Source: a virus. Taken from it: a DNA stretch of 37,023 nt. The DNA lies in IMG/VR virus record IMGVR_UViG_3300030119_000582, positions 1 to 37,023 of that record; one strand, written 5' to 3'. The notes beneath the pieces are model-generated. The model made no database searches. It saw only the letters and a program-made list of their open reading frames with translations, and was not told where the DNA came from. This document shows, in pieces, positions 16,982-20,465 of this stretch (position 1 is the first letter of the stretch; every line of letters begins with the position of its first letter). A program made the translations under genes and the position numbers.

Positions 16982-17390
16982 TGTTGTTTATATCCTTCAA
17001 TGCTTGTAGATGTTCCGATTGTAAATTGATCTGCACAGCTGGTCCTTGCTTCTCACCGTATCGCTCTGGGTCTACCTTGCCAGCAACCCAACGTCTCGCA
17101 TCAATCCTTACCTTTGCTATCTGCGCGTCCGCAGTGTCGATGCAAGAGTCTGCGATCTTAATGGTCTCATCGGCCAGAGTCTCTGCAAAATGCCTTTGAG
17201 CGCGTTTGTACTCGTCTCTGCGTCCAGGTTTACGATCTAGCCAGCCATACCATATACGCTTAGAAACCTGATATTTCCTAATCGCCTCGGTCACTGGCAG
17301 CCCGGTTGCCAAATCCTCAAAAATGTCCTGCTCGCTCAAATCTAACCGAGCATACAACTGCTTAGTAATCTTTTGACCACTCACTTTCAT
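16947..17390 (-). CDS. terS: Terminase small subunit (TerS), Sf6-like
   Basis: A 147-aa protein with the layout of Sf6-type small terminases. An N-terminal helix-turn-helix ('DIFEDLATGLPVTEAIRKYQ', 'VSKRIWYGWLDRKPG') recognises DNA. A central helical part ('HFAETLADETIKIADSCIDT') follows, then the family hallmark 'RIDARRWVAGKVDPERYGEK'. It would bind the packaging start site and regulate TerL, which here is encoded 3.4 kb away. The ATG at 17390 follows AGGAG closely; a TTG one codon upstream is the alternative. It overlaps the zinc-ribbon gene by 29 nt. Confidence 0.88.
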   Translation of the reverse strand: MKVSGQKITKQLYARLDLSEQDIFEDLATGLPVTEAIRKYQVSKRIWYGWLDRKPGRRDEYKRAQRHFAETLADETIKIADSCIDTADAQIAKVRIDARRWVAGKVDPERYGEKQGPAVQINLQSEHLQALKDINNSEDALPSGRGD

Positions 17391-17682
17391 CAACTCCTAT
17401 CTCTCGTAAAATATCGCTCTCGAGCTCATCAAACTCGTTGTAACCGCCTTTCGGAACAACCAGTGCATCACGCTCCCAATCATTTGCTCGCCTCGTAAGA
17501 GGCTTAGGTTTCGCCTCCAACACCACTGGCAATTTACGCTCGCGAACTGGCCGCGTAAAGTAACTTTCGCGTGTGTTAAATCTGCATCCACATTCTTTAC
17601 ACTCTCTTCTACGTATAACGCTCTGAGAGTCCTTCTGAGTGTCCACAACAAAAGTTTGACCAGAACATTGGGTACAGATCAT
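17362..17682 (-). CDS. NrdR-like zinc-ribbon protein, 106 aa
   Basis: The first 45 residues mirror the zinc ribbon of NrdR: 'MICTQCSGQTFVVDTQ' and 'IRRRECKECGCRFNTRES', giving a CxxC...CxxC metal site and the RRRxC stretch that contacts DNA. The ATP-cone domain of genuine NrdR is absent; the rest (residues 46-106) is charged and unrelated. It may be a DNA-binding regulator of phage or host genes. It lies between the nuclease and TerS with an ATGA overlap upstream and a 29-nt overlap downstream. Confidence 0.75.
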   Translation of the reverse strand: MICTQCSGQTFVVDTQKDSQSVIRRRECKECGCRFNTRESYFTRPVRERKLPVVLEAKPKPLTRRANDWERDALVVPKGGYNEFDELESDILREIGVDESEWSKDY

Positions 17683-18268: not shown

Positions 18269-18323
18269 TTTTTCCGAGTAAATAACCAGCTAAAAACCCG
18301 GCTACAAAAACAATCTCAATCAT
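18261..18323 (-). CDS. Possible 20-aa membrane peptide
   Basis: The frame MIEIVFVAGFLAGYLLGKSA starts at an ATG overlapping the stop of the EF-hand gene (ATGA at 18320-18323) and stops inside the repeat array. It would be a single hydrophobic helix with a Lys near its end. The coupling and hydrophobicity are suggestive, but length gives little statistical support. Confidence 0.3.
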   Translation of the reverse strand: MIEIVFVAGFLAGYLLGKSA

Positions 18324-18601
18324 TTATTTCCGTTCCGTTTGAGCACCACTTGGCTGCCATATGCAGCAGCAATTACCCCAGCCATTGAGATGTAAAATAG
18401 ATCGCTGATTGACCCGATTGTTTGCAGCCGATCAGCATCGATGGGTAGCAATGCGAGGAACGGATAAACGCACATCGCAGTGATCGCCAGCCAGGACTGC
18501 GACAACATGGTCGAGTCTTTCTCAAGCTTGCTAGCCAGTTGTGCTTCTTCTTGTGTAATTTTTCCATCACCATCTATATCTAGTTCTATGTCTGGGCTCA
18601 T
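18320..18601 (-). CDS. Membrane protein with EF-hand motif, possible holin
   Basis: The start is the ATG at 18599-18601, overlapping the methyltransferase stop (ATGA). The 93-aa protein begins 'MSPDIELDIDGDGKITQEE', a canonical EF-hand loop (D-x-D-x-D-G-x-I-x-x-E). Two membrane segments follow, around residues 35-53 ('SWLAITAMCVYPFLALL') and 65-85 ('SDLFYISMAGVIAAAYGSQV'). Marine phages often carry this EF-hand plus two-helix arrangement near lysis genes. Calcium binding and holin activity are plausible but unproven. The endolysin is far away at 35553-35909. Confidence 0.7.
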   Translation of the reverse strand: MSPDIELDIDGDGKITQEEAQLASKLEKDSTMLSQSWLAITAMCVYPFLALLPIDADRLQTIGSISDLFYISMAGVIAAAYGSQVVLKRNGNK

Positions 18602-19881
18602 TCTTCCTCCTCTATCTGTTCGTTTAGCACGATCCATGCTTTAGCTGCTGTTTGTGGCACTACTCCGTTACCCAAGAGTCTAAGTCGGTCTACGCGGTTT
18701 TTTTGATCACTTGTCACCCTTGGAATTCCCAGTTCCCAAGATCCGTCCAGCCAAGAGGCAACCCCATCAAACCCTCGACCCAAGTTGAGTTCAACGTCGC
18801 AGATCTCTGATCCTTGTTGTTGGTGTGCTGAACTGCTACGTCCAGTGTGTCCATGCTCACCTTCCCATTGCGAATCCTGCCTCCCTTGTAACCTCCCTTG
18901 TGATCTCTCGTTGATGGTGTTGGCCACTTCCTCACCGCTTGCTCTAGCTTTGCCTCGTAACCTACTTTTTTGAGTCGTTTTTCCACGCTCTCCGTGCTGT
19001 CGGTCATTGCTCCGCTTGCTCTTGGTGTTGGCCATTGTCTCTTCGGTTTGTCCGACAAGCTGTCTTTCACCGCTGCCCCTATGTTCCATCCATGGCCACC
19101 GTTCTCGTGGGAGGGTGCGACTCCTGTCCCCCCCGTCATCGCTGTTGGGGTTGGCCATAGATCCTTCTTGACCGCTGTTTCCAGTCCATCCCCACTGTTC
19201 TGACTCACTCCCTTGCGATTGTAGTTGCCGTGAAGAGTCGGGGTTGGCCAATTCTTGGGTTCCTCGTGTACTTGGTTCCGTAGCCTCGCTTGAGTCGTCC
19301 GACCTTTTTCCTTGTACTTCTGCCACGCTTCCGCACTCCCCTTTCGTCCCGCATCCTCCACTGATACGGTTAGCCAAGATGAAGACTCGTTTCCTTTGGT
19401 GCGGTGCGCCAACTTCACTCGCGCTGAAAATTCCAAACGTCGTTTTGTAATTAAGTCCTTCCAGGTCTTCGATAACTTCTCGAAGTCCGAGAGAGATGTG
19501 TCCTTCGACGTTTTCGAAGAAACACTGAACAGGTCTAACTGCTCGAATAATGTCGTAGATGTACGGCCAGAGGTGTCGGGGGTCGTCTTTGCCTTTTCTT
19601 TTCCCTGCTGCGGAAAATGGCTGACAAGGATAGCCGCCAGTGAGGACATCAACTCTGTCTCGAAAGCAGTCCACTGGCAGGGTTTTAAGATTCGACCATA
19701 TAGGTGCGGCATCCAACTGACCCGCTTCCATCTTTGCAACCAGGTTCGCAATGGCGAAGGCTTCGATTTCCACATGAGCGACGACTCGATGTTCAAATCC
19801 GGCAAGCTCAAATCCTCTTTCGATTCCACCATAGCCGGTGCAAAGGCTAAGGACAGTGGGTAGTTCTTCGGGAGAATCCAC
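18598..19881 (-). CDS. DNA cytosine-5 methyltransferase (Dcm-type)
   Basis: A 427-aa C5 methyltransferase starting at GTG (19879-19881). Motif I is 'LSLCTGYGGIERGFELAG' (residues 11-28), motif IV 'GGYPCQPFSAAG' with catalytic C86, motif VI 'FFENVEGH' (E123-N124-V125), motif VIII 'GAPHQRKRVFILA', and the closing motif 'LLGNGVVPQTA' (402-412). Residues about 180-370 are a low-complexity, Ser/Gly/Gln/Arg-rich region with four repeats of the A-N-(P/T) type ('LANPDSS', 'MANPNSD', 'MANTKSK', 'VANTINE'), occupying the target-recognition region. It would methylate phage DNA, likely against restriction. It shares nearly all its length with another open frame. Confidence 0.92.
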   Translation of the reverse strand: MDSPEELPTVLSLCTGYGGIERGFELAGFEHRVVAHVEIEAFAIANLVAKMEAGQLDAAPIWSNLKTLPVDCFRDRVDVLTGGYPCQPFSAAGKRKGKDDPRHLWPYIYDIIRAVRPVQCFFENVEGHISLGLREVIEDLEGLNYKTTFGIFSASEVGAPHQRKRVFILANRISGGCGTKGECGSVAEVQGKRSDDSSEATEPSTRGTQELANPDSSRQLQSQGSESEQWGWTGNSGQEGSMANPNSDDGGDRSRTLPRERWPWMEHRGSGERQLVGQTEETMANTKSKRSNDRQHGERGKTTQKSRLRGKARASGEEVANTINERSQGRLQGRQDSQWEGEHGHTGRSSSAHQQQGSEICDVELNLGRGFDGVASWLDGSWELGIPRVTSDQKNRVDRLRLLGNGVVPQTAAKAWIVLNEQIEEEE

Positions 19882-19883
19882 AA
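18714..19883 (-). other. 389-codon open frame overlapping the methyltransferase, WPTP repeats
   Basis: A same-strand frame shifted relative to the methyltransferase stays open for 389 codons, with a TTG start 2 nt upstream of the methyltransferase GTG. It contains four W-P-T-P repeats ('NWPTPTLHGNYN', 'LWPTPTAMTGG', 'QWPTPRASGAM', 'KWPTPSTRDHKGG') and ends 'LNSTWVEGLMGLPLGWTDLG'. This resembles the C-terminus of database phage proteins (E-W-L-M-G-F-P-x-G-W-T type) usually annotated as methyltransferase-associated. The repeats are the same bases that encode A-N-T/A-N-P in the methyltransferase frame. It could be a genuine overprinted gene, a frameshift product, or a shadow. Confidence 0.4.
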
Positions 19884-19884
19884 T

Positions 19885-20268
19885 TTATTTCTTCCTCCTC
19901 AGTGCGAATATCTTGTCAGCGCTGCGCAGCCCAAAGGACGCGCTAATGGCCAGGAACAAGAGATAGGTGTACCACTCATCAAGCTCGTTCAGCACATCAA
20001 AGCCATGCCGCACTCTCTCAATGATCTCCGGGTTATCAACAAACACGCCGTAAAAGATAGCGATCAATGGCGAGGCCAGGATTAAGCACCAAAACTCATC
20101 CTTATAACTGTTGGTCGTAGCATCGGCCATCTTGCTTTCCCAATCACTGGTGCTCTCTAATACCTTCATCTTTTGCGAGTGCTTCGCTTGGGCTAACTCG
20201 CCTCGATTCTTAATTATGGACCCAGCAATGTTTGCCACTGGCTGGATTAAACTCGTTAAAATACTCAC
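19885..20268 (-). CDS. Holin-like membrane protein, 127 aa
   Basis: The GTG at 20266-20268 is chosen because GGAGGAGG lies just upstream and it overlaps the previous stop (GTGA). The protein starts 'MSILTSLIQPVANIAGSIIK', has a charged amphipathic stretch, then hydrophobic segments around 'FWCLILASPLIAIFYGVFVD' and 'WYTYLLFLAISASFGLRSAD', and ends in a basic tail (RRKK). Size, order and charged tail match the phage 'holin of 3TMs' type proteins. It would permeabilise the inner membrane for the M15 endolysin. It sits 4 nt before the methyltransferase start. Confidence 0.72.
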   Translation of the reverse strand: MSILTSLIQPVANIAGSIIKNRGELAQAKHSQKMKVLESTSDWESKMADATTNSYKDEFWCLILASPLIAIFYGVFVDNPEIIERVRHGFDVLNELDEWYTYLLFLAISASFGLRSADKIFALRRKK

Positions 20269-20465
20269 CGCTCCTCCTCCATTAGTTTTAAGTGGTGCCA
20301 CTTATCAATCACGTTTTCTGTTTGTTCTTTTTCTAAGCCGTGCCACACTTTGAAATTTTTCACGATTAATTTTCGCAGCTTCCGATCAAAGCCTCTTGCA
20401 CTTACGTCCTTTAAAACCGCAATCGCATCTAATTGCTTATGTAAATGCTGCACATCCAAACTCAT
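20265..20465 (-). CDS. Small unknown protein, 66 aa
   Basis: AAGGAGA ends 4 nt before the ATG at 20463-20465, which sets this start over a longer in-frame one lying inside the terminator. The protein is helical and charged ('MSLDVQHLHKQLDAIAVLKD', 'RGFDRKLRKLIVKNFKVWHG'). Its C-terminal codons (MEEER) double as the Shine-Dalgarno of the holin-like gene, so expression of the two is linked. I recognise no family. Confidence 0.65.
   Translation of the reverse strand: MSLDVQHLHKQLDAIAVLKDVSARGFDRKLRKLIVKNFKVWHGLEKEQTENVIDKWHHLKLMEEER

Follow-up and report, generated by a model that had tools for sequence, protein, structure and literature searches.

Among described C5 cytosine methyltransferases, the closest counterpart of the locus reported here is M.EcoHK31I (YGGCCR), a proven two-polypeptide enzyme whose large subunit carries motifs I-VIII and X and whose small polypeptide contributes only motif IX (PMC3404938). 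The gene of the large subunit also encodes the small one, in a different frame; the small subunit is short, and its start is internal to the gene. M.AquI (CYCGRG) is also a split C5 methyltransferase in which two polypeptides complete one enzyme (PMC3404938), and there motifs IX and X both belong to the small subunit. Multispecific phage C5 methyltransferases of the SPbeta and phi3T type hold several exchangeable recognition modules in one enzyme. In addition, a survey of P. larvae phages listed gp61 and gp62 as separate DNA-cytosine methyltransferases (PMC6070908), and the methylase gene of phage ShiLan hides an HNH endonuclease in an alternate frame (PMC11855218). Long dual-coding genes are considered rare in bacteria and their viruses, and ambiguous start sites have been called nearly undocumented, the sole bacterial example described previously being that of Thermus rnpA-rpmH (PMC9841429).

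Here we describe a viral locus in which two reading frames are conserved as coding over almost the whole of one methyltransferase gene. It lies in IMG/VR record IMGVR_UViG_3300030119_000582, positions 1 to 37,023; this entire stretch of 37,023 nucleotides is referred to as the window. The near-complete dual coding of one DNA stretch is not a product of chance, and in all likelihood the locus encodes a two-subunit C5 methyltransferase resembling M.EcoHK31I, with its subunits in two frames, although translation, pairing, and activity are inferred. As in M.EcoHK31I, the second product (beta) is read in another frame (+1) within the gene of the first (alpha), and alpha has motifs I-VIII and X. Unlike the small subunit of M.EcoHK31I, beta begins at a start site shared with alpha and spans almost the entire gene. 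Furthermore, the constrained recognition modules are in beta, whereas the predicted recognition domain of M.EcoHK31I was assigned to the large subunit (PMC3404938). What is new beyond M.EcoHK31I is the end-to-end overlap, the shared starts, and the swappable WPTP modules. The locus differs from M.AquI in that motif X is in alpha. It also differs from the SPbeta and phi3T-type enzymes, which are single chains in one frame; here the modules are in a second frame, and multiplicity of recognition is inferred from the WPTP repeats. As in ShiLan, an alternate frame of a phage methylase gene contains a second protein, here an inferred one, but the ShiLan HNH protein is a homing insertion element and not part of the enzyme, unlike the role that we propose for beta.

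Layout of the two frames

The alpha frame has recognizable motifs I-VIII, including Pro-Cys-Gln, as well as motif X, and the PF00145 match is confined to it (Table 1). Motif IX was not recognizable in the alpha protein of the window. The beta frame is matched by PHROG 1008, "DNA methyltransferase"; searches of beta against Pfam and NCBIfam returned no match at a meaningful score. An earlier note, made from the sequence alone, had reported a 389-codon second frame inside the methyltransferase, a C-terminal ending that it quoted, and four repeats read as A-N-T/A-N-P in one frame and as W-P-T-P in the other. All three observations held. The frame is open far beyond chance, beta ends in LNSTWVEGLMGLPLGWTDLGNWEFQG, and the WPTP motifs at beta residues 212, 242, 284, and 319 are read in alpha as LANP, MANP, MANT, and VANT, respectively. 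The placement of the overlap in the target-recognition region held only in part, as the overlap begins at the first alpha codon and ends shortly before motif X.

Table 1. Features of the dual-frame methyltransferase locus, in window coordinates
Feature	Position	Strand	Details and basis
Alpha subunit, C5 cytosine methyltransferase (putative subunit)	18598..19881	-	427 aa, GTG start; PF00145 4.9e-34, PHROG 363 8e-56
Beta subunit (putative)	18714..19883	-	389 aa, +1 relative to alpha; TTG start at 19883; PHROG 1008 6e-22
Overlapping start codons TTGTG (TTG beta, GTG alpha)	19879..19883	-	Translation, comparison of relatives
AGGAGG, Shine-Dalgarno-like, common to both starts	19894..19899	-	Long spacing in the window
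Catalytic motif IV of alpha, Pro-Cys-Gln (alpha residues 85-87)	19621..19629	-	Translation and alignment
Four WPTP repeats of beta	18918..19250	-	Codons start at 19250, 19160, 19034, and 18929; flank variable recognition modules (recognition role inferred)
Beta module WPTPSTRDHKGGYKGGRIRNGKVSMDTLDVAVQ	18831..18929	-	Also in Salmonella, Escherichia, Cronobacter, and Klebsiella phages
Motif-IX-like block of beta, LNSTWVEGLMGLPLGWTDLG (beta residues 364-383)	18735..18794	-	Translation, codon-position pattern, conservation
Motif X of alpha, LGNGVVPQ (alpha residues 403-410)	18652..18675	-	Directly past the end of beta

Both frames are maintained by selection

After deduplication at 93% identity, 50 relatives were scored for beta-frame stops, and the counts were compared with the number expected when the alpha protein was held fixed and synonymous codons were drawn from the usage of 185 flanking ORFs; the third frame served as a control for shared ancestry and composition. 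No beta stop was observed over alpha codons 1-100, where 284 (sd 13) were expected, over codons 101-170 (150 expected), or over codons 171-368 (126 expected). Stops in the third frame were close to expectation over codons 1-100 (302 vs 308) and 101-170 (174 vs 172). Over codons 171-368 that frame was somewhat depleted too (315 vs 464 expected), which leaves this stretch less clean when taken alone. With beta held fixed in the reverse test, 370 alpha stops were expected across the recognition and IX region and none occurred, while the third frame had 359 stops against 269 expected. Because stops are depleted in both directions, we conclude that both frames are kept open across the overlap. The relatives are phylogenetically linked, and the third-frame control covers the stop test but not every measure that follows.

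The distribution of substitutions revealed which frame is the more constrained in each segment. In the IX block, the three alpha codon positions vary at 0.36, 0.13, and 0.21, the most variable being the third position of beta. In the X block, which lies past the end of beta, they vary at 0.13, 0.19, and 0.55, the pattern of a single normal frame. The fraction of identical codons at conserved alpha residues was 0.61-0.72 over residues 1-172 and 0.78 in the IX block, compared to 0.45 in the X block. Synonymous change is suppressed under the overlap, which supports dual coding. A module with the form WPTP...DHKGGYxGGRIRNGK occurs in the family of the window and in Klebsiella, Salmonella, Escherichia, and Cronobacter phages; within it, 20% of beta residues and 60% of alpha residues differ, and the differences at the first, second, and third beta codon positions are 0.20, 0.13, and 0.52. 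The window and a spring-water podovirus (L003) share a second module at about 80% identity (judged by eye), and their alpha N termini are only 41% identical. Alpha dominates in the N-terminal half, over motifs I-VIII, and in motif X; beta dominates in the WPTP modules and the motif-IX-like block. Since the beta frame leads there, the low complexity of alpha in that region is a passenger effect of beta. The stop, synonymous-site, and codon-position evidence indicates that the overlap carries purifying selection on both frames.

These results bear on the remaining claims of the earlier note. Its proposal of large-scale overprinting is supported by the two-way stop depletion, the suppressed synonymous change, and the codon-position patterns, and its suggestion that the low complexity of a frame may stem from constraint imposed by the other one held, with alpha as the passenger. 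The note had also named three findings that would refute overprinting, namely, purifying selection in the methyltransferase frame only, a lack of stand-alone homologs of the second frame, and stops in that frame in close homologs. The first is contradicted, and so is the second, as beta ORFs outrun any overlapping methyltransferase in six loci (L010, L082, L171, L181, L234, and L246). The third was met with only rarely, once early in the outlying lineage L088/L089 and once later in a truncated record (L067). At L088:2564 and L089:314, the beta stop falls near codon 100 and is followed two codons on by a beta-frame ATG, a configuration that is likely to be a stop-and-restart cutting beta in two. 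Because this lineage breaks and restarts there, the N-terminal part of beta may be dispensable as one piece.

A shared start site

The start codons of the two frames coincide. The last base of the beta start codon doubles as the first base of the alpha GTG in 45 of 48 relatives, the pair reading ATGTG in 41, GTGTG in three, and TTGTG in one; in two of the ATGTG relatives, the alpha start is an ATG one codon downstream. The pair in the window is TTGTG, with the TTG of beta beginning 2 nt upstream of the overlapping alpha GTG (19881). An alpha-frame TAA, which is the stop of the upstream gene, lies 4-6 nt before this GTG, so alpha cannot start further upstream in the window. The distance from the Shine-Dalgarno sequence to the ATG (DtoStart) is 12-15 in 33 of the 40 relatives in which it could be measured. 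Spacing in the window is longer (18/20), and there is no ATG. Given this spacing, it is possible that re-initiation after the upstream stop adds to translation in the window, an inference from sequence. No internal start with a good Shine-Dalgarno sequence that would yield a short beta was found in the window.

Experiments in E. coli provide a guide to how such sites may behave. AUGUG at a spacing of 12/14 yields both products with AUG favored, and at 13/15 and longer the AUG product predominates (Kohl et al., PMC9841429). By analogy with this spacing rule, beta would be the favored product in many relatives; dual start use has not been measured. The family resembles the E. coli AUGUG and GUGUG sites and Thermus rnpA-rpmH in having two start codons at one Shine-Dalgarno site, each heading one of two overlapping frames (PMC9841429). 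Unlike at those sites, the start pair here is kept across a whole gene family, and the products are apparently parts of one enzyme.

Motifs IX and X and the proposed identity of beta

Beta ends in a conserved LNPxWVEWLMGxPxGWT block (general form LNxxWVExLMGxPxGWT) just before motif X. In the six loci where beta outruns alpha, alpha ends after motif VIII and the beta frame runs through IX into X, which is the split of the M.AquI type. Positions 206-374 of PHROG 116 match the catalytic domain and positions 409-489 match the beta of L010 (6e-9), separate ranges from which we infer that this family spans both parts of the enzyme. The assignment of motif IX to beta is itself inferred from position, appearance, and PHROG 116. 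No significant similarity emerged when the beta IX block was compared by profile with two canonical phage enzymes (P 0.36), and the input was flawed, two of its six rows having been taken from the wrong frame. We make no claim about the fold of beta, which AlphaFold2 modeled poorly on its own (mean pLDDT 52) and for which Foldseek returned no match. A PDB profile search with beta gave chance matches only, and no counterpart is known for the first 130 residues of beta.

The arrangement of these motifs varies among individual loci. L082 belongs to the window's own family and has a beta frame that carries both IX and X (L082:2195-3081), which we infer from sequence to be a natural switch to an M.AquI-like split within that family. 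Compared with L017, the window has about 17 extra codons between IX and X (18650-18750), which alpha reads as SWLDGSWELGIPRVTSDQK. This extra stretch resembles GTWADDTWEEGIPRVIEDCANRKDRIRL in the beta of L082, and the beta of the window terminates within it. Rhodococcus phage ReT1v-1 (L011) shows another rearrangement, with recognition modules in the +1 frame and IX and X in the alpha frame. In an alphaproteobacterial MAG (L163:2236-3216), the recognition modules are read in the beta frame but IX in that of alpha. We considered this last locus as a same-frame bridge and set it aside, as its folded recognition and IX region was of low confidence and a fusion, an indel, or an assembly error is possible. 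No alignment of short motif fragments to L163 was obtained.

Distribution and annotation of relatives

A tblastn search with beta matched 96 phage records; IMG/VR gave 98 matches, many of which were the same contigs found by both queries. In nearly all relatives, no stop interrupts the +1 frame between the alpha start and the vicinity of motif X, and the alpha frames range from approximately 255 to 502 codons, stop to stop. The WPTP modules are common to distant phages, and their number varies among relatives. It is likely that variable numbers of exchangeable modules set the sequence or sequences that are methylated, an inference made without data on module targets or role. Annotation of the gene is inconsistent between phage records. 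For example, both frames are annotated, nested, in Paenibacillus phage Tadhana (L002 1014-2084 and 1216-1920), only the beta frame is annotated in Cronobacter phage JC01 (L005), and the annotated gene of ESSI2 and SEN4 is the alpha frame.

Scans with a beta profile recovered 333 relatives from genomes of bacteria and archaea, and viral contigs yielded at least another 581. The broad beta alignment was too diverse for a collection scan, and a closer alignment was substituted; the scan relied on the IX motif, and relatives lacking it were undetectable. A recognizable alpha was present in 155 of the best 160 loci. In 150 of these, beta is in the +1 frame and alpha extends past IX; among the other five, alpha ends before IX in four, and IX is in the alpha frame in one. 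To our knowledge, this distribution is unreported in the literature that we searched, in which coverage of subscription papers was poor.

A second clade, which includes bacterial chromosomes, has a different start arrangement (L115, L120, L123, L133, L148, L150, L154, L186, L196, L201, L205, L208, L225, L236, L241, L242, L251, L252, L263, L266, and L267). In 21 of 23 loci, the alpha start codon is followed four bases on by the ATG of beta (RTGAATG and similar), which is the spacing of AUGGAUG in Thermus rnpA-rpmH. Alpha begins MNEL... and beta MSW..., and the two are nearly equal in length, as in Pseudomonas trivialis (L150; 337 and 340 residues). Over codons 1-100, there were 7 beta stops against 41 expected, and the IX block varies at 0.30, 0.14, and 0.11. 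Variation in the first 20 codons follows the pattern of an ordinary alpha frame, which makes constraint on the N terminus of beta less clear in this clade.

Interpretation and rival explanations

We interpret beta as a subunit of the methyltransferase. This is an inference, drawn because alpha has no recognizable motif IX, beta ends in an IX-like block, motif X joins the beta frame in six loci, PHROG 116 spans both parts, and M.EcoHK31I provides a precedent. Under this model, ribosomes using one Shine-Dalgarno site would start either at the beta codon (ATG or TTG) or at the alpha GTG two bases on. Alpha would supply the AdoMet-binding and catalytic motifs I-VIII and motif X, with a low-complexity read-through linker in between, while beta would supply the WPTP-flanked target-recognition modules and the motif-IX-like segment and would bind alpha to complete the enzyme. 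Exchange and number of modules would then set the methylated target or targets. For the phage, the probable use would be shielding its own DNA from host restriction. We have no expression, peptide, or methylation data, and the translation of both frames in cells, the pairing of alpha with beta, the role of the modules, the activity, and the biological use are all inferred.

Three other explanations deserve consideration. A programmed frameshift from alpha to beta after motif VIII could produce one chain with motifs I-VIII, the modules, and IX, without a separate beta. Such a chain would regain the canonical motif order up to IX, and the frames of TinaFeyge and other two-ORF phages do overlap near motif VIII. 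Yet a late frameshift has no need of an open beta frame over alpha codons 1-100, where 284 stops were expected and none occurred, nor of a beta start codon beside that of alpha in 45 of 48 relatives, and the chain would require a second shift to reach motif X. No conserved slippery site was noticed, although the search was not systematic. The frameshift that the earlier note had offered as an alternative, swapping the C-terminal half, is not favored given the separate starts at a shared site and the need for alpha's own frame to reach motif X; we regard it as unlikely, while it has not been formally excluded.

More doubtful still is the view that beta is a protein with a separate role, such as a regulator or anti-restriction factor, that merely overprints the methyltransferase. 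In its favor, beta alone has no recognized fold, and its N-terminal region has no known counterpart. Against it, the end of beta resembles motif IX, which is not recognizable in alpha, the split loci place motif X in the beta frame, and PHROG places beta among DNA methyltransferases; we consider a separate role very unlikely. Finally, alpha could be the sole protein, with the open beta frame resulting from composition and a conserved alpha sequence. Long open frames do arise commonly by chance, and beta is unrecognized by Pfam and NCBIfam. However, codon resampling predicts hundreds of beta stops where none was observed, while the third frame conforms to expectation. Moreover, substitutions within the modules and IX are absorbed by the third positions of beta and not those of alpha, and in six loci beta ORFs continue beyond the point where alpha stops. 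This explanation is all but ruled out.

Returning to the two-subunit reading, a bolder version can be put forward: that a widespread class of phage and bacterial enzymes uses one ambiguous site (ATGTG or RTGAATG) to make both subunits from almost completely overlapping frames, with swappable modules in the second. We lean toward this version, by a modest margin. As part of it, the first 130 residues of beta may have arisen by overprinting. With a family of at least 150 loci across many phyla, dual coding and ambiguous starts become directly testable. If the reading is true, many annotated methyltransferases are half-annotated, with the probable specificity subunit either absent from the record or alone on it, and the odd low-complexity region found where a recognition domain is expected in many phage methyltransferases would be explained. 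The subunits would also be inseparable in inheritance, and specificity would be changeable by module exchange.

Neighboring genes

Other small proteins are encoded near the locus on the same strand of the window. One at 17362-17682 (-) has an NrdR-like zinc ribbon (PF22811 2e-7), with other parts of NrdR not recognized. The methyltransferase itself is flanked by two small proteins of unknown function, of which that at 18320-18637 (-) contains a weak EF-hand-like stretch and that at 19885-20301 (-) is a member of PHROG 2524.
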